A DNA stretch of 28,258 nucleotides. It comes from a virus. This document shows, piece by piece, positions 1 to 24,192 of this stretch. A program made the translations under genes and the position numbers. The stretch spans positions 1 to 28,258 of IMG/VR virus record IMGVR_UViG_3300047359_000601; one strand, given 5' to 3'. Position 1 is the first letter of the stretch; each line of letters begins with the position of its first letter. A model generated the notes under the pieces. It was not told the DNA's origin. It ran no database searches and saw nothing but the letters and a program-made list of their open reading frames with translations.

Positions 1-444
1 ACCGATGCCGCCTGTACCGTTTGCAGGTTTTGCTACTACAGGGAATGTTTTACGTAAAGATGTGTGAGTCATTGGTACTGGTATACCAATATTGTAAGCA
101 TGTGCAGTATAATTTTCTTTGTTTGATAGTATATTACATTGTTCTTTTGTGATACCGACTAGGTCGTGTATGTAAGGAAGCAACATGTCGTTATATAAGG
201 GAAATATATAATCTATATTATTTTCATTTATAATTTTACGTAACTGATTAGCAAGGTCTGATCTATCTTTAGCTTTAATAGCATAGTGTTCTATACCGTC
301 AGGAACACTAGGTATCATTTTATCTAGCAATGGAAATTGAGAGTTAGTATTTGCTTGCCAAGTACATAGTTTGTAATTTGTTAGTTCTTGTAGGGTATAC
401 CTTAAATTATTGCTTTGGTAATTTATAATTACTTTAGGCTCCAT
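1..444 (-). CDS. ATP-grasp enzyme, N-terminal part (runs off window)
   Basis: I read this frame by hand: ATG at 444-442 opens 148 codons without a stop to base 1, so the C-terminus is outside the window. The N-terminal ~95 residues look like a pre-ATP-grasp domain, with IDYIFPLYNDMLLPYIHD followed by SNKENYTAHAYNIGIPVPMT. That pattern (a Lys before a 'gipvP.t' segment) is typical of ATP-grasp ligases. It is followed by TFPVVAKPANGTGGIG, which resembles the ATP-grasp nucleotide-binding lysine and glycine-rich loop. These enzymes join a carboxylate to an amine or thiol through an acyl-phosphate. The substrate cannot be told from this part. The gene overlaps the upstream GNAT-like gene by 11 nt and is third in an operon led by panD, so beta-alanine is a candidate substrate (inference). 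A carbamoyl-phosphate-synthase-like or amino-acid ligase role is also possible. Confidence 0.75.
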   Translation of the reverse strand, partial: MEPKVIINYQSNNLRYTLQELTNYKLCTWQANTNSQFPLLDKMIPSVPDGIEHYAIKAKDRSDLANQLRKIINENNIDYIFPLYNDMLLPYIHDLVGITKEQCNILSNKENYTAHAYNIGIPVPMTHTSLRKTFPVVAKPANGTGGIG

Positions 445-1054
445 AAGTAATTTTATCCCTCATAATAGTATTGGTATACTTTATTTTCATAGTAATAAAT
501 CTTATAGTAGAATCATATGGTAAGGGTTTGTTGCCTAAGCAATAGTCATACAACTTATTACCAGTTAAATGGCCAGCTTTGACAAAAGCAGCATCTGTAA
601 CATTATATTTTTCTTCATATATTGAAGCATACTTCTTACCATACTTTGAAACATCTAAGCCTTGTACATTATGTGTATTTCTTTCTTTGTTTGCTCTTTC
701 AATGTCTTCACTGCGTACCCAAAAAAATCCCCATTTGCCTCGAGACTCACATTCATTTAATTGGAATTGCATTACTTTCAAAATGTTTCTAAAATTAGCA
801 AAATGGCTTTGGTCTTTTCTTGCCAGTAATGTATCACATAACACCCACGGCATATTTGGTAAATCTTCGCCTGCAACAATTGCTTGTATTTCTTTATTTT
901 TTAATACAGCATAAATGTGTCTATTAGGTTCTATAAATTTTATATTTTGCCAATGAAAATCGTTCTGTAAATTATGTGATTTAATTTGGTCGTTTATAAA
1001 ATTAAAGAATAAATCTTTATGATCAGGCGTTAATTTGATACATTCATCAATCAT
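434..1054 (-). CDS. GNAT-like acetyltransferase candidate (206 aa)
   Basis: Unrecognised at family level. The fold pattern looks GNAT-like: an N-terminal helix-rich segment, then strand pairs around IYAVLKNKEIQAIVAGEDL (residues ~48-66), a helix, and a 'CESRGKWGFFWVR' strand (~102-114) that could be the fourth or fifth beta strand. A clear acetyl-CoA Q/RxxGxG/A loop is not visible, so acetyltransferase activity is unproven. The ATG at 1054 overlaps the end of panD by 8 nt, and the gene's own end overlaps the ATP-grasp start by 11 nt. The three are therefore almost certainly co-translated. In this context it could acylate, or otherwise act on, the product of PanD or of the ATP-grasp enzyme; that is inference only. 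Confidence 0.6.
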   Translation of the reverse strand: MIDECIKLTPDHKDLFFNFINDQIKSHNLQNDFHWQNIKFIEPNRHIYAVLKNKEIQAIVAGEDLPNMPWVLCDTLLARKDQSHFANFRNILKVMQFQLNECESRGKWGFFWVRSEDIERANKERNTHNVQGLDVSKYGKKYASIYEEKYNVTDAAFVKAGHLTGNKLYDYCLGNKPLPYDSTIRFITMKIKYTNTIMRDKITYGA

Positions 1055-1391
1055 AGTTTATAGTCTTTTCAATAGTATTGTACTTATTTGTGTATATTAC
1101 TGTAGCTCCATCAAATTGAAAAGAAGTAGTATAACTAAGGACTACACATGGATCTCCTATTTCGCCTAATCTTGCACCACCGCCGTTTAGTTCAAACACA
1201 CCTTTGTTTCCTGGAATTACATATGTAGTCCAACGGTCACCGGTATTCATATTTACAATATCAACTTTTTGATACGGATCAAGATCAACTTTAGACATTA
1301 AATCACGACAGATAGTTACACTACCATCGTAGTCTAACGATTTATCAGTAACATGAATATTTTGAATTTTAGATTGGATATACTCTCTCAT
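1047..1391 (-). CDS. panD: Aspartate 1-decarboxylase (PanD)
   Basis: PanD is a pyruvoyl enzyme that converts L-aspartate to beta-alanine and CO2, normally for pantothenate/CoA synthesis. The 114 aa match the usual small size of the family and align along its length with the E. coli enzyme as I remember it. The self-cleavage site YDGS (Gly23-Ser24) corresponds to YEGS, and Lys8 to Lys9. GDRWTTY supplies Arg53 and Tyr57 (Arg54 and Tyr58 in E. coli), LNGGGAR (from Asn69) corresponds to NGAAA, and GDPCVVLSY to the last core strand. All residues needed for processing and catalysis appear present. It is first in an operon with a GNAT-like gene and an ATP-grasp gene. No Shine-Dalgarno is seen before the ATG, and the promoter -10 element ends only 6 nt upstream of it. 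A phage-borne PanD is unusual. I am confident of the family, less so of the pathway it serves. Confidence 0.88.
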   Translation of the reverse strand: MREYIQSKIQNIHVTDKSLDYDGSVTICRDLMSKVDLDPYQKVDIVNMNTGDRWTTYVIPGNKGVFELNGGGARLGEIGDPCVVLSYTTSFQFDGATVIYTNKYNTIEKTINYD

Positions 1392-1407
1392 AGTACTATT
1401 GTACTAT
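1390..1407. repeat. Inverted repeat over the panD -10 and start codon
   Basis: Perfect 7-bp arms ATAGTAC (1390-1396) and GTACTAT (1401-1407) around a 4-nt centre. The repeat covers the -10 element and the first bases of the start codon. It could be a repressor site. In transcripts reading through from the fibre gene it could also fold into a hairpin that hides the start. It may also be chance in AT-rich DNA. Confidence 0.5.
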
Positions 1408-1426
1408 AAAAAATTTGTGTTGTCAA
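1398..1426 (-). promoter_or_regulatory. Sigma70-type promoter of the panD operon
   Basis: On the minus strand, TTGACA (1426-1421), a 17-nt spacer and TACAAT (1403-1398). The -35 lies directly after the stop codon of the tail-fibre gene (1431). Only AGTACT separates the -10 from the panD ATG at 1391, so transcription starting about 7 nt past the -10 would begin at or next to the start codon, giving a leaderless message. Confidence 0.8.
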
Positions 1427-1430
1427 CCTA

Positions 1431-2960
1431 TTAGTTTAAGTCTACCCAAGCTGAGCCAGTATAGCCTTGGAATTTAGTGCCAGTACTATTAAAGATTATC
1501 ATACCTGCAGCTGGTGTTGTTACAGCCGCTGACCTTGCAGTATCGTCAGCAACTACTTTAAGCTGGATTGCTCCACTAAATGATGCTACAGAATCTGTTT
1601 GTGCAATTTGTAGCACTACAGTTTGATCGCCATTTGCTGCTGAATTGTATAATTCAATATTTGTTGGTATTCTGTTTGCCTCTGGAGCTGCCGAAGCAAG
1701 GAATCTAATACCTCCTGAGGCCCTATAAGCTGTACCGTTATATCCAGCTGCTGCATATGCTCCGAGTTGATCACCCGATTGTACTGCTGTTGGTGCAGCC
1801 TTTGTACCTCTAGATCTTAATGCACCATATGTACTTCCGTAGCCTGCATCAGAAGCATGAAATGTTCTTATTGTTGTTGTACCTTGTGTGACAGCGTCAT
1901 TATAAACACCAAGTGTTCTGTTGTTGCCTGTGTCTGTAACACCGCCAACTTGTGAACTTCTGCCTAATACTATCGATCCAGCAGTATTTTCAGTAGTGAT
2001 TGTAAAAACATTACTTTCAGTATTTTGCTCTAAGAACATTGTATTCTTACTAGTAGCTGAAGTTAGTTTAATATTGCCAGCTAGTACGCCTAATTGTGTA
2101 CTAACTTGTCCAGTAATCTTATTGTTAATACCATCTACAAGTAATGAACTATCTTCACCAAACACACTACCGCTCATAGTACCAAGTAATTGACCATTTA
2201 CAGTACCGTTAAATACTGCATTAAAACTATCTAATATCTTAGACGAGTCATCAGTTGAGCTGAATATATCACCTTGTATATCACCTAACCATTGGCCTGT
2301 AGCTTTATCAAATACCTTCCTTAAACCAAGATCAAAAATGTCACCTTGGAAATTACCAATAATATCACCGGTAAACAATTTAGTAGTTGGATTATATGCT
2401 GTTGTTCCATCACCGGCTTCGATGGTCATATTTTTAACAGTGCTAGTACTTGTATCAACTAGCTGGGTGCCATCAAGTTTGTATAAATCTCCGCCATATA
2501 CATCGCCCATAAGTCTATTATTATCATGATCAACTAATAAACTACTATTGTTTCCTACAATACTTAATCTAATCTGTGAGTCTTTTAATTGTTCAACTTT
2601 AAAGTTACTTCCATCATGTATCAGGATCTGACCCCAACCCGGGCCACCATCTGGATATATTACATCGTCATGATTATTTAAATTGCCTAGTGTTGCACCT
2701 GCAGGGTTTACTGCTGTCCAATAGTTGTCGCTTGAAGACCATGCTAAAACTTGCCCATCACTAATGCTACCCAGTGTAACATCATTTAAATCATTTAGTG
2801 ATGATGCGCCACCGCCGCTTCCTTGTACTACAACACCGCCAGCAGTTGTACCATCACCAACATATAACGACTTTGTATCAGTTGTGTAGATAAGTTCGCC
2901 CGCTGCTGGTGTAATAAGCTGACGCTCAGCGTTGGTACCTCGTCTTAGCCTTAATGCCAT
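1431..2960 (-). CDS. Tail fibre-like / receptor-binding structural protein (509 aa)
   Basis: Probably a trimeric fibre protein that contacts the host surface. The N-terminus, MALRLRRGTNAERQLITPAAG followed by ELIYTTDTKSLYVGDGTTAGG, is the short beta-rich module found at the head of many phage fibre and Mtd-type tropism proteins. The middle is rich in Gly, Asn, Ser and Thr, with repeat-like units. SSLLVDHDNNRLMG (~139-152) is echoed by SSLLVDGINNKITG (~271-284), and GDI/GDIF turns recur at ~199-232. The C-terminus (AAGMIIFNSTGTKFQGYTGS, then AWVDLN) is a common ending of marine phage fibre proteins and repeats the logic of the N-terminal module. The start has AGGAG upstream and lies 33 nt downstream of a T4-type late promoter, as expected for a virion gene. 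No chaperone or lysozyme domain is visible. Confidence 0.75.
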   Translation of the reverse strand: MALRLRRGTNAERQLITPAAGELIYTTDTKSLYVGDGTTAGGVVVQGSGGGASSLNDLNDVTLGSISDGQVLAWSSSDNYWTAVNPAGATLGNLNNHDDVIYPDGGPGWGQILIHDGSNFKVEQLKDSQIRLSIVGNNSSLLVDHDNNRLMGDVYGGDLYKLDGTQLVDTSTSTVKNMTIEAGDGTTAYNPTTKLFTGDIIGNFQGDIFDLGLRKVFDKATGQWLGDIQGDIFSSTDDSSKILDSFNAVFNGTVNGQLLGTMSGSVFGEDSSLLVDGINNKITGQVSTQLGVLAGNIKLTSATSKNTMFLEQNTESNVFTITTENTAGSIVLGRSSQVGGVTDTGNNRTLGVYNDAVTQGTTTIRTFHASDAGYGSTYGALRSRGTKAAPTAVQSGDQLGAYAAAGYNGTAYRASGGIRFLASAAPEANRIPTNIELYNSAANGDQTVVLQIAQTDSVASFSGAIQLKVVADDTARSAAVTTPAAGMIIFNSTGTKFQGYTGSAWVDLN

Positions 2961-9706: not shown

Positions 9707-10504
9707 TTAAGTACCTATATATCCTCCAGCAAAGTCATAGTAAAAATATTGTGTACCTGTTCGAGGAACATTTGTTACCCATTCTCCGTTTATTATTACT
9801 CCACTTTCACTACTAGTTTTGCCATGATATTCTTCGCCAGTCATATGTATGCTATTATCTACAGTAAAGATAGGAATTTGTGAAGCTCTAGACAATAATC
9901 TAAAATGTGCATCGTGCCACCTTTCGAAGTATTCATCTTCATCGTTACCTCTATTGCCGTTTGTACTATGTATAAAGAGACCTACGCCGCCCGTTTTTTG
10001 TGCTTCATTTATAATACATTTTCCACCTAACCAACTGTGTCCCCATAGATCATTACATATTAATCCAACTATTGGTATATTACACTTTTCTGTAGTCAAC
10101 CAATGAATTCGAATGCCATCCTTTTCTAAGTCATTAGGTAATGATGCATCGTGTTCGATAATATGACTTTTATTAGTTACACCAATTAATTCACCATTAT
10201 TATAAAAACGTATTTGGTTCCTTCTAACTCTTCCAAAATATTCATCTTCTTGCCACATTGTTCCTAAACAAAGACCTACTTTTTTCTCTGCGGAATATTT
10301 TTCTATTTCTGTAAGGGCGGCTTGTACATCCTCAAAGTTATAATATGGCACATACCCACTAAGACTTCCTTCAGGAGTAACTAAGTAATCAACTTTATTT
10401 TCAGAAGCCCAATCAATTGCAGTTTTTATGGTGATAATATTTTTTTGTATATCTGCTCTTACTGGAATTTGTGCTCCGCCGATACGTATTGATCTTACTT
10501 CCAT
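9707..10504 (-). CDS. Nitrilase-superfamily (carbon-nitrogen) hydrolase (265 aa)
   Basis: A carbon-nitrogen hydrolase. The Glu-Lys-Cys triad is intact: Glu45 in VTPEGSLSGY, Lys112 in GVTNKSHIIEHD and the nucleophile Cys150 in IVGLICNDLWGH. Length (about 265 aa) and start (RSIRIGGAQIPV) fit the family. Members hydrolyse amides, carbamoyl groups or, more rarely, nitriles, and the substrate cannot be read from the sequence. Phage copies are unusual. Two ideas from context are a beta-ureidopropionase-like activity (another source of beta-alanine) or action on the nitrile of preQ0-type bases. Both are speculative. The ATG at 10504 overlaps the upstream 80-aa gene by 10 nt, so it is in the exonuclease operon. 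Confidence 0.82.
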   Translation of the reverse strand: MEVRSIRIGGAQIPVRADIQKNIITIKTAIDWASENKVDYLVTPEGSLSGYVPYYNFEDVQAALTEIEKYSAEKKVGLCLGTMWQEDEYFGRVRRNQIRFYNNGELIGVTNKSHIIEHDASLPNDLEKDGIRIHWLTTEKCNIPIVGLICNDLWGHSWLGGKCIINEAQKTGGVGLFIHSTNGNRGNDEDEYFERWHDAHFRLLSRASQIPIFTVDNSIHMTGEEYHGKTSSESGVIINGEWVTNVPRTGTQYFYYDFAGGYIGT

Positions 10505-13336: not shown

Positions 13337-13441
13337 CTAAAAACCTTTCTGTCTTAGCCTTTCTATATCTATCGGTGCTTTCATAGCTTTTGATAGTTTT
13401 TCTTGTCTTTCGCGTTCGACTTTATCATGTACCCCATGCAT
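13337..13441 (-). CDS. Possible small coupled ORF (34 aa)
   Basis: The ATG at 13441 lies inside the last codons of queE and the frame ends at 13337, 8 nt before the next gene. The product begins MHGVHDKVERERQEKLSKAM and ends APIDIERLRQKGF, a charged helix. It fills what would otherwise be an unusual 96-nt gap in a very tightly packed genome. The ribosome site is weak (CGGAA), so translation would rely on coupling to queE. A longer frame starting inside queE exists but runs antisense to nothing and is less likely. Confidence 0.4.
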   Translation of the reverse strand: MHGVHDKVERERQEKLSKAMKAPIDIERLRQKGF

Positions 13442-14324
13442 TTCCGAATAAGGATATGTGGAGTCTTGGGGTGAAACGCCATCCTCTTTCCATACACGCC
13501 TCCGCAACTTCTTGAACATTAAGGTTGTACTCTTCCGAACGTCCGCCCAGCGGCATAAGATATACTGGACAGTCGACCCCGGCGCTACGATACTCTTCGA
13601 CAGCTCTAGTAACTTCATCAAAGTCATCTTTAGTAGCAACCACAAACTTAAGATAGATATTGCTACCATCCACATTGCTATACTCACTAGCAACATCAGG
13701 CTTAATAGCAGTATCCCAAGGTTCTCCGCTAACTGATAGTTTTGGGGAACAAGACCAAGTAACTTCAAATCTGTCTTGATTGCTGAGATAGTCGCAGAAA
13801 TCATCTTTGAGACGTTGCGTAGTATTTGTTTCAAATGTAACATTTTTTAAATCCTGCATGCGTGGATGTTCGAATAGCTCAATGTAAAGCCGTTGCCACG
13901 CTAACAACGGTTCACCGCCTGTCATAATTAAATGTATATCTTGTCCATTATCCATTGTCCACTTACCTTCAGGAGTAAGTGAAAGAAGATGTTCTACTAC
14001 TTCATCTACTTCTTTTTGCTTATTAAAATGCTTAAACTCAGGATAGATACTTGCATAAGTATCACAGCCTGTGTGTATAATAGGCAAATCGTTAAAGTCT
14101 ACAGTTGTTTTATGTACATCTTTTGCAATTAATTCTGCAACCTCTGCATTATGCTTTTTACCTGCTTTGTGTTGTTCCCAACGATCTCTTGTTTCATCTG
14201 TACCAAAATTCATACAACGAAAGTTACAACCGAAGGTACGTAGGAATACACTAGGGACTCCTACAAATCTACCTTCACCTTGTACAGAGTAAAAAGCTTC
14301 TGAGTATCTAAGCTTATTTCCCAC
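13425..14324 (-). CDS. queE: QueE-like radical SAM 7-carboxy-7-deazaguanine synthase (299 aa)
   Basis: QueE converts 6-carboxytetrahydropterin to 7-carboxy-7-deazaguanine using SAM and a [4Fe-4S] cluster. The family signature RYSEAFYSVQGEGRFVGVPS (~6-25) is clear. It is followed by FLRTFGCNFRCMNFG (Cys33, Cys37), the SAM-binding motif MTGGEP (~134-139), FETNTTQ and TWSCSPKLS. The cluster motif is atypical: CX3C is kept, but the third Cys is Phe40, and the next Cys is Cys87 in IIHTGCDTY. The protein is longer than bacterial QueE (about 220-240 aa). I chose GTG at 14324 because AGGAG lies 7 nt upstream and the overlap with folE is then 11 nt; an ATG at 14351 is the alternative. It is co-transcribed with folE. 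Confidence 0.88.
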   Translation of the reverse strand: MGNKLRYSEAFYSVQGEGRFVGVPSVFLRTFGCNFRCMNFGTDETRDRWEQHKAGKKHNAEVAELIAKDVHKTTVDFNDLPIIHTGCDTYASIYPEFKHFNKQKEVDEVVEHLLSLTPEGKWTMDNGQDIHLIMTGGEPLLAWQRLYIELFEHPRMQDLKNVTFETNTTQRLKDDFCDYLSNQDRFEVTWSCSPKLSVSGEPWDTAIKPDVASEYSNVDGSNIYLKFVVATKDDFDEVTRAVEEYRSAGVDCPVYLMPLGGRSEEYNLNVQEVAEACMERGWRFTPRLHISLFGNAWGT

Positions 14325-15003
14325 ACGCGAACTCCTGCTGAAGTTTAACATTATCGATAAACTCTTTTTTAGTTGCAGGATCGTCTTTAAATGCACCACG
14401 CAATACAGTTGTTTGTGTTAGACTACTTTTTGCTCTAATACCTCTGTTCTCACAACAACCATGTGTCGCTTGTACGTATACGCCAACGTGTTCACTACCA
14501 GTTTGCTCTTGTATTGCATTTGCAATCATAACATTAAGCTCTTCTTGTAGTGTTCCTCGCATAGCACACCATTGTGCAATACGTGTGTACTTGCTAAGAC
14601 CTAATAGTTTAGGACCTGCAATAATACCAATGTATGCCACACCTTTTACTGTTTGGTGATGATGCGAACATAAACTTGTAAGTTCACTACGCACAACCAA
14701 CATACCTTCATAACCACCTTCAATGTAGTTAGGAAATGCACTTGGGTTAGGCATTGTATCATAACGACCAGACATAATTTCATTAATGTACATCTTAGCC
14801 ATACGCCTTGCGGTGTCTTGACTGTTAGGATCTGTTTTTGTATCAATTAACAGTGTTTGTAATACATTTTCGAAAGCAGGAACTGCTTCTTCAATTAGTT
14901 GTTGCTTGTCGCCTTCTTCAAGTACTTCACTAATGTTATCATTAGCCCAGTATCTAATACCAGCTTCTTCTAGCTTTGTTTTAATTTCTTCTACTTTGCT
15001 CAC
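14314..15003 (-). CDS. folE: GTP cyclohydrolase I (FolE)
   Basis: Converts GTP to 7,8-dihydroneopterin triphosphate, the first step towards 7-deazaguanines (and folate). The family core is intact. SELTSLCSHHHQTVKGVAYI (~106-125) gives zinc ligands Cys112 and His115. LLGLSKYTRIAQWCAMRGTL (~133-152) corresponds to the 'LGLSKlaRi' segment. VQATHGCCENRGIRAKSS (~177-194) gives the third ligand Cys183 and the 'MRGv'-like loop. The 229 aa match the usual length. The start is GTG at 15003 with CGGAGA 9 nt upstream. It leads an operon with queE behind a perfect sigma70 promoter that carries an inverted repeat. Confidence 0.93.
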   Translation of the reverse strand: MSKVEEIKTKLEEAGIRYWANDNISEVLEEGDKQQLIEEAVPAFENVLQTLLIDTKTDPNSQDTARRMAKMYINEIMSGRYDTMPNPSAFPNYIEGGYEGMLVVRSELTSLCSHHHQTVKGVAYIGIIAGPKLLGLSKYTRIAQWCAMRGTLQEELNVMIANAIQEQTGSEHVGVYVQATHGCCENRGIRAKSSLTQTTVLRGAFKDDPATKKEFIDNVKLQQEFACGK

Positions 15004-18399: not shown

Positions 18400-18933
18400 T
18401 TAACTATTTGGATAAAAAATTGAACAGCCGTTTTCGTTATCTTCACTTACTTCAATTTCGACAAAACGGCCGGGATGTCGATTTGAAATTTCTTTATATA
18501 GTTCATCTGCAATCATTTCGCAGGATTTATGATCTAGAACAAGCACTTGACCTTCAGCGGAATCACTGTATAGTCTTTCAAGCCATCGCTTGAACTGAAT
18601 GAATTCAATGTCTCTATCATCGTGAAACACCTCAATACGCACCCTGAAGTGGAAAATGTGACGATGAGGATGACCAAGAAAACTAACATCATCCCACCCA
18701 CCTGTTGCAAGTTTGGGATCATCTAATGCTGCCGGATAACAATGAATACCTTCCTTTGAGAATGTAACCCATATACTTCGTTGTGCATTATTTAGTGCAT
18801 TTTCTTTTTGCATTTTAGCATCTTCCTCTCTCATTCGTCTACCCATGTAATCATGATAGCTTTCACGATTGACTGCATCATACGATGGGTAACCTTTTTC
18901 AAAAACTGGTGATGTGTGTTCATCTTCTACCAT
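18400..18933 (-). CDS. queD: QueD-like 6-carboxytetrahydropterin synthase / PTPS family (177 aa)
   Basis: The family makes 6-carboxytetrahydropterin from dihydroneopterin triphosphate, the step between FolE and QueE. Recognisable parts are KEGIHCYPAA (His64), FLGHPHRHIFHFRV (metal-type His90 and His92, as in 'HGH.Y'), IEFIQFKRWLERLY (the 'v.DF..lk' segment), VLDHKSCEMIADEL (Asp134-His135) and VEIEVSEDNENGCSIFY (the C-terminal Glu strand). The Cys usually just before the HxH pair is missing (VSFLG there), and residues 1-50 are an extension, so activity is less certain than the fold. The ATG at 18933 has no ribosome site and lies 6 nt after a promoter -10, predicting a leaderless message. Confidence 0.8.
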   Translation of the reverse strand: MVEDEHTSPVFEKGYPSYDAVNRESYHDYMGRRMREEDAKMQKENALNNAQRSIWVTFSKEGIHCYPAALDDPKLATGGWDDVSFLGHPHRHIFHFRVRIEVFHDDRDIEFIQFKRWLERLYSDSAEGQVLVLDHKSCEMIADELYKEISNRHPGRFVEIEVSEDNENGCSIFYPNS

Positions 18934-18939
18934 ATTATT

Positions 18940-18968
18940 AGTATACTTTCATTTAATAGGTTTGTCAA
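18940..18968 (-). promoter_or_regulatory. Sigma70-type promoter of the queD operon
   Basis: The minus strand reads TTGACA (18968-18963), 17 nt, then TATACT (18945-18940). The -35 is inside the last codons of the upstream 171-aa gene. AATAAT separates the -10 from the queD ATG, so the transcript should begin at or beside the start codon. Confidence 0.78.
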
Positions 18969-19464: not shown

Positions 19465-19673
19465 GATATAGGTCCTAGGTCAACAAGTTTCTTTTCAATT
19501 CGATGTATTTCGTCTTTAAACCATAATTTTTTTGTTTTGAGTACTACAAGTTCTTGATCTGGCATTAATTTTTTATATCCTTCGATAATTTCTTTGTCCA
19601 GTGTTCTATGCTTTTTATAAAGTTCTTGTAGGTATATTGCATATTTTTCATGCTTCGCTGTGAAGTTGCTCAT
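19461..19673 (-). CDS. Small coiled-coil protein, DUF465/YdcH-like (70 aa)
   Basis: Helical protein with the DUF465-type pattern: LQELYKKHRTLDKEIIEGYK (~15-34) is the 'l...H..Ld.eI' part and VLKTKKLWFKDEIHRIEKKL (~44-63) the 'lK..kl.LKdei.r' part. These small proteins form helical hairpins and have no settled function. The start (ATG 19673) overlaps the end of dpdA by 26 nt, and the stop overlaps the next start, so it is co-translated with both. Confidence 0.6.
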   Translation of the reverse strand: MSNFTAKHEKYAIYLQELYKKHRTLDKEIIEGYKKLMPDQELVVLKTKKLWFKDEIHRIEKKLVDLGPIS

Positions 19674-21207
19674 CCTCTAGTACCTCTAACTTTTCTTCAT
19701 TAAGTTCCTGCTCTTGTTCTTCTTCAACATTATCGTCTGTGTCAAACAATGAATTAAAGTAGGTTTGTGCATTAACAGTCTTTTTACCAATAGCACCTCT
19801 AGTACCTGGTATTGACATCCAGAATTTTGAAAATTCTTCAATTACTGCATTCGCTTCGTCTCGACTGTCAGTTGCGAATATTGCTTCCACAACATCTCTA
19901 AAAAATAACCTGTCGAAACGTTCTTCAACAAGCATGTTCGGAATGATTCCATTGTCGTATTGTCTATTTGCTTCTTGTACTGCATTAATATGACTCCATA
20001 CATTATGACCCATTTGGATCGCATATGAAAAACTATCCCAAGATGTTTTTCCTTCTTTACCTATTTTATTTAGATCTCCTGGACCATATATGCATATATC
20101 TTTGGCTTGTAGTTCAGCAGTAATAGGAGAATCTTTAAAGCTAGTGTGCTTACCTTCTCTTACAAATGCACTGCCAAATGGTGTAGTATCTTGTGATAAT
20201 CCTTTATCATCAATACTAGGAACCATTCGATATACCCATTTCAATCTATCTTGTGTTTCGAGTTCACAATAAATCTGTCCATTAGCAGTTGCTAAGAAAG
20301 GACTTGCACAATCAAATGTAATCATAAAGTTTGGATTATGATATTTACGAACTGCTCTTTGTATATCAGTTAGTAGTGTAGCCCACTCTAGTTTTGATGT
20401 ACCTAAGAAGTGCATTACATCATGTATGCCTGTTTCCAGTAGTCCGTCGAATCTCAATGCAACTAGACGTTTAAGAACCAAATGTACATCACACATGTTC
20501 TGACCACCCATTGACCACCCATTAAAATGTGTGTCTGGATATACTTTAGGATCGCAGTAGTCTTTCATTTGATTGTACCAATCATCTGCGTCTGCGTGAT
20601 TTTCGCCTTGTAATACATTTAAAAATTTACAAGCACCTGTTCTGTGCTTCATAAAATAATCATTGTTAATACGTGTTGCGGCTACTGCTTCTGCATATGT
20701 TGAAATACCTGTTGCTTTTGCACCTTCTGGAGAACGTGCTACCCAAGCTGGAATATCAAGTATCATTCCATAGTCCATGTAAGCATCCATCCATTTAAGA
20801 ACACCGTCACGTTTCTTTTGTGCTTTAGGACAGTTGGGATCTTTCCAGTCTCCTTCCCAAACGCCTTTACCAATTTGGAAACCGCCACTATCACCTAATA
20901 ACCAAGTATTTGCTCTGTCTCTGTTTCGTACCATATCTTCTTTAGGTACAAACTTAGTTGTGTCTAAGTCGGCATGCCCTGCAGAATACAAACACCATTT
21001 GTATTGGAACATACCTTCTTGTTTATTAAGATAGTTTAAGCTTTCAACTCCATTTGGAAAGTTGCTAGGTACTCTAGCCGGATCAACATACGGACCTTTC
21101 ACAGGATCAGGATGTCGCTGTTTACCAACATACGTTGCAAAGAACCCGCTAAGTGCTGGTAAAAAAGTTGCGTAATCCTGTTGTGCTTTTGTCAAGTCTG
21201 TAATCAT
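19648..21207 (-). CDS. dpdA: DpdA-like TGT-family DNA transglycosylase (519 aa)
   Basis: Related to tRNA-guanine transglycosylase. DpdA-type members exchange guanine in DNA for a 7-deazaguanine base. The TGT path can be followed: LLGDSGGFQIGKG with Asp106 ('DSGGFQ'), MILDIPAW with Asp151 (base-binding Asp), FLNVLQGE (~195-202, 'f.ivQGg'), HFNGWSMGG (~227-235, 'y.iGGl.vGe') and FMITFDCASP with Asp299, at the place of the TGT nucleophile ('mFDcv.PtR'). The usual TGT zinc Cys cluster is not seen, and the acidic tail (DTDDNVEEEQEQELNEEKLE) is unlike cellular TGT. The length exceeds bacterial TGT (about 375 aa) and fits phage DpdA-like proteins. Neighbours queD, queE and folE support DNA rather than tRNA modification. 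Confidence 0.82.
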   Translation of the reverse strand: MITDLTKAQQDYATFLPALSGFFATYVGKQRHPDPVKGPYVDPARVPSNFPNGVESLNYLNKQEGMFQYKWCLYSAGHADLDTTKFVPKEDMVRNRDRANTWLLGDSGGFQIGKGVWEGDWKDPNCPKAQKKRDGVLKWMDAYMDYGMILDIPAWVARSPEGAKATGISTYAEAVAATRINNDYFMKHRTGACKFLNVLQGENHADADDWYNQMKDYCDPKVYPDTHFNGWSMGGQNMCDVHLVLKRLVALRFDGLLETGIHDVMHFLGTSKLEWATLLTDIQRAVRKYHNPNFMITFDCASPFLATANGQIYCELETQDRLKWVYRMVPSIDDKGLSQDTTPFGSAFVREGKHTSFKDSPITAELQAKDICIYGPGDLNKIGKEGKTSWDSFSYAIQMGHNVWSHINAVQEANRQYDNGIIPNMLVEERFDRLFFRDVVEAIFATDSRDEANAVIEEFSKFWMSIPGTRGAIGKKTVNAQTYFNSLFDTDDNVEEEQEQELNEEKLEVLEDEQLHSEA

Positions 21208-23619: not shown

Positions 23620-23779
23620 CCTTCTTTTTCCTTTTTGCATACATACCACTAGTATATTCTACTTCTTCAGATCTAGCACCATATGGATAAACTGTAATTT
23701 CGTTGCCTTTAGCTAACCATTCTTTGACTAATTTTCTGTCTGCTTCAATAGCCAATCTCTTTTCTTCTGCGTCAGTCAT
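23600..23779 (-). CDS. Small coupled protein (59 aa)
   Basis: Read by hand: the ATG at 23779 overlaps the stop of the cytidylyltransferase gene as ATGA, and the frame ends at 23600 inside the start of the HAD gene. The product begins MTDAEEKRLAIEADRKLVKE, continues WLAKGNEITVYPYGARSEEV and ends with a Lys-rich tail (YAKRKKKGEKSKK). It closes the only gap in this operon and looks like a real protein: an acidic helix, a beta hairpin and a basic tail. Its function is unknown. Confidence 0.7.
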   Translation of the reverse strand: MTDAEEKRLAIEADRKLVKEWLAKGNEITVYPYGARSEEVEYTSGMYAKRKKKGEKSKK

Positions 23780-24192
23780 TTCTTCTCCGTGTCAGCTACT
23801 CGTGAACGTAAATCACTTGTGCTGAATCGGTGATCTCGTTTATTAAAATGCAAATCTATATCTCTACTACGACATATATCCTTGCCAGTAAAATCCTTAT
23901 CGCGATATTCTTCTCCTAATATTCTAATGTTTATAGGATACATCTGCAAAATATCTTCTAAATCTTCTTCTGTGCCATAAGGGATAATTTCATCTACATA
24001 ACCAACTGCTTTTAATTGTGTATAACGTTCTACAATAGTTTGTATTGGTGAGTTCTTTTCTTTTCTATCTACGCTAGGATCAACTTGTAACCCCACTAAC
24101 AAATAGTCGCATTGCTCTTTCGCTTCACGTAGCATAATTACATGTCCTGCATGTAATAGATCAAATGTACTGCAAGTAAATCCTACTTTCAT
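23776..24192 (-). CDS. Cytidylyltransferase-like nucleotidyltransferase (138 aa)
   Basis: Activates a phosphorylated sugar or polyol with CTP or ATP. The nucleotidyltransferase signature is clear: GFTCSTFDLLHAGHVIMLRE with HxGH (His14, His17), YLLVGLQVDPSV, and RFSTSDLRSRV near the end, corresponding to 'iSTT.i..Ri'. The length is that of glycerol-3-phosphate cytidylyltransferase (TagD) or the nucleotidyl domain of HldE. Which substrate is used is unknown. It is coupled to the cupin gene upstream (1-nt overlap) and to the 59-aa gene downstream, within a sugar-nucleotide cluster. Confidence 0.87.
   Translation of the reverse strand: MKVGFTCSTFDLLHAGHVIMLREAKEQCDYLLVGLQVDPSVDRKEKNSPIQTIVERYTQLKAVGYVDEIIPYGTEEDLEDILQMYPINIRILGEEYRDKDFTGKDICRSRDIDLHFNKRDHRFSTSDLRSRVADTEKK

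Follow-up and report, generated by a model that had tools for sequence, protein, structure and literature searches.

A phage gene set of PanD, a GNAT-like protein and an ATP-grasp enzyme as a possible beta-alanine ligation pathway

Aspartate 1-decarboxylase (PanD) provides the beta-alanine step of vitamin B5 synthesis, and the presence of its gene in a phage raises the question of what the enzyme serves there. The window, by which is meant the whole stretch of DNA analysed, is a virus record of 28,258 bases (IMGVR_UViG_3300047359_000601, positions 1 to 28,258), with almost all of its genes on the minus strand. Genes for PanD, a GNAT-like protein and an ATP-grasp protein occupy window 1-1391 on that strand (Table 1), and the original prediction of a three-gene overlapping set headed by PanD was confirmed, the overlaps being 8 bases between the PanD and GNAT-like genes and 11 bases between the GNAT-like and ATP-grasp genes. 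Because the window is itself the whole virus record, the truncation of the ATP-grasp gene is an assembly end. The window PanD recurs with 100% amino-acid identity in two further viral contigs, one of which (48 kb) extends beyond window base 1, and the ATP-grasp gene could be read past that base, as had been proposed, to a complete protein of 381 aa. It is followed there by a convergent PhyH-like dioxygenase gene, a PP-loop protein gene and more dioxygenase-like, desaturase and radical-SAM genes. No phage of the annotated collection has a DNA match to the first 24 kb of the window, and the named phage isolates have neither a DNA match nor a protein match to the GNAT-like, ATP-grasp or PP-loop proteins. 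Since the DNA polymerase of the window shares 40-50% identity with its counterparts in jumbo phages (Agrobacterium phage Atu_ph07 and Sinorhizobium phage Phosso), the phage probably belongs to an uncultured, jumbo-related myovirus lineage.

Table 1. Features of the gene set and of related loci; coordinates are those of the window unless a record label precedes them.
Feature	Coordinates	Strand	Remarks
ATP-grasp amino-acid-ligase-like protein, N-terminal 148 of 381 aa	1..444	-	overlaps GNAT-like gene by 11 bases
GNAT-fold protein without canonical acyl-CoA loop	434..1054	-	206 aa; overlaps PanD by 8 bases
PanD-family pyruvoyl aspartate 1-decarboxylase, phage clade	1047..1391	-	114 aa; PF02261 E=3e-28; RW-TTY and NGGGARLG signatures
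Sigma-70-type promoter TTGACA-17-TACAAT	1398..1426	-	11/12 consensus bases; -10 ends 6 bases before PanD ATG
Tail-type protein with Mtd N-terminal domain	1431..2960	-	PF18454 E=2.4e-11; context, outside pathway
Full ATP-grasp gene	L003:6948-8093	+	381 aa; longer contig with identical proteins; ATP-grasp_3 E=1e-12
Genes interposed between PanD and the GNAT-like gene: two TauD-like dioxygenases, fatty-acid desaturase(s), radical SAM	L018:6354-9592, L021:7355-10581, L043:2358-6389		
Second PanD cassette (sister context)	L006:3347-6563, L016:899-4290, L027:5344-9164, L034:5853-8427, L046:2671-5945		

The window PanD covers nearly the whole PF02261 domain at 98.5 bits (gathering score 25) and scores 80.3 bits against the TIGR00223 equivalog model, whose cut-off is 106; because of the latter score it is, by profile comparison, a divergent member of the PanD family and not a certified equivalog. 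The claim of a complete enzyme with Gly23-Ser24, Lys8, Arg53 and Tyr57 in place is upheld by the invariance of these residues in 14 phage-clade sequences. The Gly-Ser processing site, together with Lys, Tyr, Arg, Thr, Tyr and Asn positions, is likewise invariant in these 14 and kept in nearly all of 19 other PanDs, and a catalytically complete window enzyme is supported at this level. While the phage enzymes share with bacterial PanD the whole domain, the self-cleavage site and the catalytic residues, they form a separate clade in the tree (support 97/96, 14 phage-type sequences against 19 others), have a shorter C-terminal part, and all 14 carry Trp54, usually Phe in bacterial PanD, and Gly72, which is Ala in nearly all bacterial PanDs. 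As these Ala-to-Gly and Phe-to-Trp changes lie beside the active site, the substrate could differ, for example in being another acidic amino acid or a carrier-bound aspartyl group, such that beta-alanine would not be the intermediate. The invariance of both residues across the clade, the shortened C-terminal segment and the sub-threshold TIGR00223 score favour such a shift; however, the residues that presumably act on aspartate are all kept, and since PanDs of Calditrichota already have the first Gly, the changes to the pocket appear to be gradual. A shifted substrate is held to be improbable. The Calditrichota PanDs (L047-L053) have the motif NGGAARLG, intermediate between the bacterial and phage forms. 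A further, independent and long-branched PanD (29% identical) is encoded by the cultured Achromobacter phage 2-1 (L062:3989-4384) between DNA polymerase and RNase H genes, with His at the positions of active-site Arg53 and Asn69.

As an auxiliary metabolic gene, the phage PanD would feed host pantothenate/CoA synthesis and its neighbours would be unrelated to it. It accords with this role that textbooks give PanD as the supplier of beta-alanine for pantothenate, and that bacterial PanD homologues can adjoin panB and panC (L064). However, a profile search of ten related contigs carrying the phage PanD, which are probably fragments with partner genes possibly elsewhere, returned no panB or panC over the cut-off; weak PF02569 matches in four contigs were sub-threshold, the one in the window contig falling on the gene at 23776-24192, a cytidylyltransferase. 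The CoA reading is thereby weakened, much as the original prediction had argued from the missing pantothenate genes, and it agrees poorly with the membership of this PanD in a phage-specific clade and with its strict linkage to an amino-acid-ligase-like enzyme. Simple CoA auxiliary metabolism was set aside as very unlikely, and the module apparently serves something other than vitamin B5 synthesis.

The linkage of the genes was followed in IMG/VR by scans seeded with PanD and ATP-grasp alignments, the GNAT-like alignment being too divergent for such a scan; many PanD matches in the phage collection look like bacterial contigs bearing a phage label. The search for conserved synteny that had been suggested found PanD and ATP-grasp together in ten phage contigs (nine distinguishable), either adjacent or with dioxygenase, desaturase and radical-SAM genes between them. 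The direct succession of PanD, GNAT-like and ATP-grasp genes occurs in the window contig, 3300024346_006002, 3300031519_000019 and 3300002144_000172. In a longer form (3300040808_001336, 3300017913_001833 and 3300002136_000057), two TauD-like dioxygenases, a desaturase and a radical SAM gene occupy the interval from PanD to the GNAT-like gene, with an additional second desaturase-like gene in 3300002136_000057, and these interposed enzymes may tailor the same product. A variant in 3300017913_002066 has a 188-aa protein between PanD and the GNAT-like gene, a similar protein being present in 3300040808_001336, while the near-identical pair 3300032435_000379 and 3300007522_000367 has an ATP-grasp of 32% identity and then a weakly similar 189-aa protein in place of the GNAT-like gene. 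When the conserved PP-loop neighbour was used as an independent anchor to control for linkage, PanD and ATP-grasp were both present at nine loci with intact flank; both were absent from one close relative, whose PP-loop protein is 44% identical, and from the distant anchor loci, and two loci were cut by contig ends. Wherever loci of the lineage have enough flank, PanD and ATP-grasp are thus both present or both absent, never one alone. The open frames recur in relatives at 58-66% (PanD), 21-58% (GNAT-like) and 31-75% (ATP-grasp) identity. Both PanD and ATP-grasp are under purifying selection, with dN/dS well below 1: where calculable, it is 0.07-0.27 for PanD and 0.11-0.29 for ATP-grasp (0.17 and 0.24-0.29, respectively, in the reliable pairs of low synonymous divergence), more distant pairs being near saturation. 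Because they recur at these identities with such ratios, the frames of the gene set are, by sequence comparison, beyond chance.

A promoter element equivalent to that of the window (Table 1) stands at all nine distinguishable loci, with the PanD ATG six bases after the -10 in every case, and it keeps its position also at loci with a different gene upstream of PanD. Since promoter-like matches in the window contig are no commoner than expected (21 observed, 18 expected), the evidence lies in the conserved position and not in the match itself. With transcription starting some seven bases downstream of the -10, the 5' end of the transcript would fall on or close to the PanD AUG. From a promoter common to nine loci, it is predicted that the gene set probably has its own transcript, which is possibly leaderless or near-leaderless. 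The separate host-type promoter behind the tail gene suggests that the set is expressed independently of the structural genes and therefore probably acts during infection rather than as part of the virion. A similar element, TTGACA-17-TATACT, at window 18940-18968 (minus strand), has a -10 that ends six bases before the ATG of the gene at 18400-18933 (minus strand), and may thus mark a further leaderless transcript of the phage.

The ATP-grasp model (pLDDT 83.6) has as its best structural match the L-amino acid ligase BL00235 (3vot; Z 32.4, 3.3 A over 366 residues), followed by YwfE/BacD at Z of about 29 and then by PurT, PurK and biotin carboxylase (Z 25-29). Lys139, Asp252, Asp264 and Arg268 are invariant in all nine sequences, the last three aligning with Glu, Glu and Arg of BL00235, and the protein thus has the two acidic Mg ligands and the Arg for the substrate carboxylate, with Asp instead of Glu at the presumed Mg positions. 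The fold, over the whole chain, the conserved Arg and the acidic positions are shared with BL00235 and BacD/YwfE; however, identity to them is about 16%, and the window-lineage protein reaches the cut-off of no curated NCBIfam model, such as NF053745, its sub-threshold matches being to PylC, MfnD, DdaF and BacD. In its predicted fold it is closest to the L-amino acid (dipeptide) ligases, outside their curated membership. The GNAT-like protein has no match in Pfam or PHROG, and its AlphaFold2 model (pLDDT 79.7) has a GNAT fold with Z 14.1 to RimI (Foldseek E 4e-6). The R/Q-x-x-G-x-G/A acyl-CoA pyrophosphate loop is carried by five of five ABC-GNAT controls and by none of eight GNAT-like homologues, and because this loop is missing the protein is not an ordinary acyltransferase. 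The acyl-group transfer originally ascribed to it was, as an acyl-CoA-dependent reaction, not borne out, and its modelled function is the weakest part of the scheme. The GNAT-like family also has no detectable profile relation to the ABC-GNAT domain or to Mu Mom, so that a Mom-like DNA modification was rejected; the ABC-GNAT domain itself has no match to Mom.

Taken together, the gene content, the recurrence, the shared promoter element, the predicted folds and the PanD clade allow the construction of a model in which the phage module encodes a pathway of beta-alanine ligation, a reading that is judged, by a narrow measure, to be probable. This model proposes that PanD would cleave itself at Gly23-Ser24 and convert aspartate to beta-alanine, as its family and intact residues imply, whereupon the ATP-grasp enzyme would activate a carboxylate as an acyl-phosphate and join it to an amine in an amide, in the manner of L-amino acid ligases. 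Either a dipeptide-like beta-alanyl compound or, on a larger acceptor, a beta-alanyl amide could result, and the GNAT-fold protein, lacking the usual acyl-CoA loop, would probably handle or transfer the conjugate. Each of these chemical steps, like the acceptor, is something we infer. As the ATP-grasp protein is closest in fold to amino-acid ligases, conjugation fits better than CoA supply; the idea of beta-alanine conjugation in the original prediction is thus strengthened by the intact PanD, the recurrence, the lack of panB and panC in the ten contigs and the ligase-like fold, although not in its use of GNAT as an acyl-CoA transferase. Against ligation count the sub-threshold TIGR00223 score, the changes beside the PanD active site, the ATP-grasp scores below every curated cut-off, Asp in place of Glu at its presumed Mg positions, the replacement of the GNAT-like gene in the near-identical pair, and the probably fragmentary state of all contigs. 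Ligases of the BL00235/BacD type make dipeptides from free amino acids, and in methanofuran synthesis the decarboxylase MfnA is paired with the ATP-grasp ligase MfnD. The module resembles this pair in that a decarboxylase would supply the amine used by an ATP-grasp ligase, and it has a weak MfnD match, whereas MfnA is a PLP enzyme and the module has a pyruvoyl PanD. Likened by function alone, the module would also perform the type of reaction, an ATP-driven amide bond with beta-alanine, of carnosine synthase, an ATP-grasp ligase that joins beta-alanine to histidine (PMC6920838). The literature covered, which included neither the original ABC-GNAT prediction paper nor the 2009 amidoligase survey, yielded no description of a phage panD with an ATP-grasp gene, nor of one with beta-alanine and hypermodified DNA; within that coverage the module is new as an arrangement, built from known enzyme families.

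The module PanDs (group support 89/69) are nested within the phage clade among PanDs of another context, namely those of Rhodococcus phage Jace (Gordonia phage Jace in NCBI naming), IMG/VR contigs L016, L027 and L034, and the Thermoanaerobaculia MAG contig L046. Records of this sister context encode, in whole or in part, ParB, an ABC-ATPase/GNAT fusion that keeps the acyl-CoA loop, PanD, a short CoA-transferase III that keeps its catalytic-Asp segment, and an ASCH protein. The prediction of base acylation by ABC-GNAT proteins was reportedly made by Iyer et al. in 2013, in NAR. Judged from its genes, the sister cassette is a probable beta-alanyl-CoA-dependent system of nucleobase acylation, in which the path would run from PanD through beta-alanyl-CoA to the GNAT, and in the window lineage the activating role would be taken by the ATP-grasp enzyme. 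This parallel is the best argument, by analogy, in suggesting that beta-alanine itself is the group attached. However, while the same PanD clade is used, the cassette would activate through CoA-transferase and a CoA-loop GNAT, with ParB and ASCH, and the window module has ATP-grasp and no ASCH; ASCH is present in five of five sister-context records and in none of the ten module contigs, and neither ParB, ABC-GNAT nor CoA-transferase was seen among the module-neighbouring genes read. A system identical to that of Jace-type phages was rejected because ASCH is absent from the ten contigs.

It is conceivable that the acceptor is the DNA of the phage itself, such that a beta-alanyl-modified nucleobase or nucleotide would arise by amide hypermodification in a variant of the ABC-GNAT/PanD/CoA-transferase/ASCH cassette. 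The nesting of the module PanD among those of that cassette fits this proposal, as do the predicted acylation of a DNA base by ABC-ATPase-coupled GNAT proteins (PMC7824862), the joining of glycine to a DNA base by the phage amide ligase CmoY (PMC12783734), and the GTP cyclohydrolase and QueE-like radical SAM genes inside the window. However, the distribution of ASCH argues against it, as do the profile comparisons of the GNAT-like protein, and the gene set adjoins a tail gene and not a DNA-modification cluster. The phage system CmoA/CmoX/CmoY, which forms the glycine amide of 5-carboxymethylcytosine (PMC12783734), resembles the proposed module in using a phage enzyme and ATP to attach an amino acid by an amide bond, but CmoY is an asparagine-synthetase-like AMP-forming ligase, and neither C5-methyltransferase (PF00145) nor CmoA (TIGR00740) was found in any of the ten contigs, so that 5cxmC amide hypermodification is not supported there. 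DNA as the acceptor is, on this evidence, unlikely. The PP-loop protein (L003:9215-10156, minus strand) is conserved in all these phages, at 44-72% identity in close relatives, and may, like CmoY, be an AMP-forming ligase of the asparagine-synthetase type. In a wider form, and because sister-cassette PanDs share the clade of the module PanD, the beta-alanine made by the clade might serve hypermodification of nucleic acids by a new class of systems, working through CoA-transferase and ABC-GNAT in Jace-like phages or through ATP-grasp and a CoA-independent GNAT fold in the window lineage; this, too, is regarded as doubtful.

Returning to beta-alanine ligation, in both of its contexts the phage PanD clade is associated with enzymes of the carboxylate-activating and acyl-transfer types, and not with panB/panC. 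This two-context clade, the conserved promoter and the larger variant cassette with TauD-like, desaturase and radical SAM genes had escaped the original prediction. If the model holds, phages would draw on beta-alanine to build conjugates, which perhaps protect phage DNA or alter host molecules. With three small proteins the module is directly testable in vitro, and Jace, a cultured phage among the carriers of the sister cassette, offers material for nucleoside analysis of that context. Elsewhere in the window, GTP cyclohydrolase I and the QueE-like radical SAM gene lie in the region 13425-15003 (minus strand), and a 519-aa protein with a DSGGFQ motif (19648-21207, minus strand), by eye like tRNA-guanine transglycosylase/DpdA, has a homologue in PA5oct-type phages; the three together make a 7-deazaguanine pathway in this phage probable, as read from the genes. 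A nitrilase-superfamily carbon-nitrogen hydrolase (PF00795) is encoded at 9707-10504 (minus strand), and its substrate could be a nitrile, for example preQ0.
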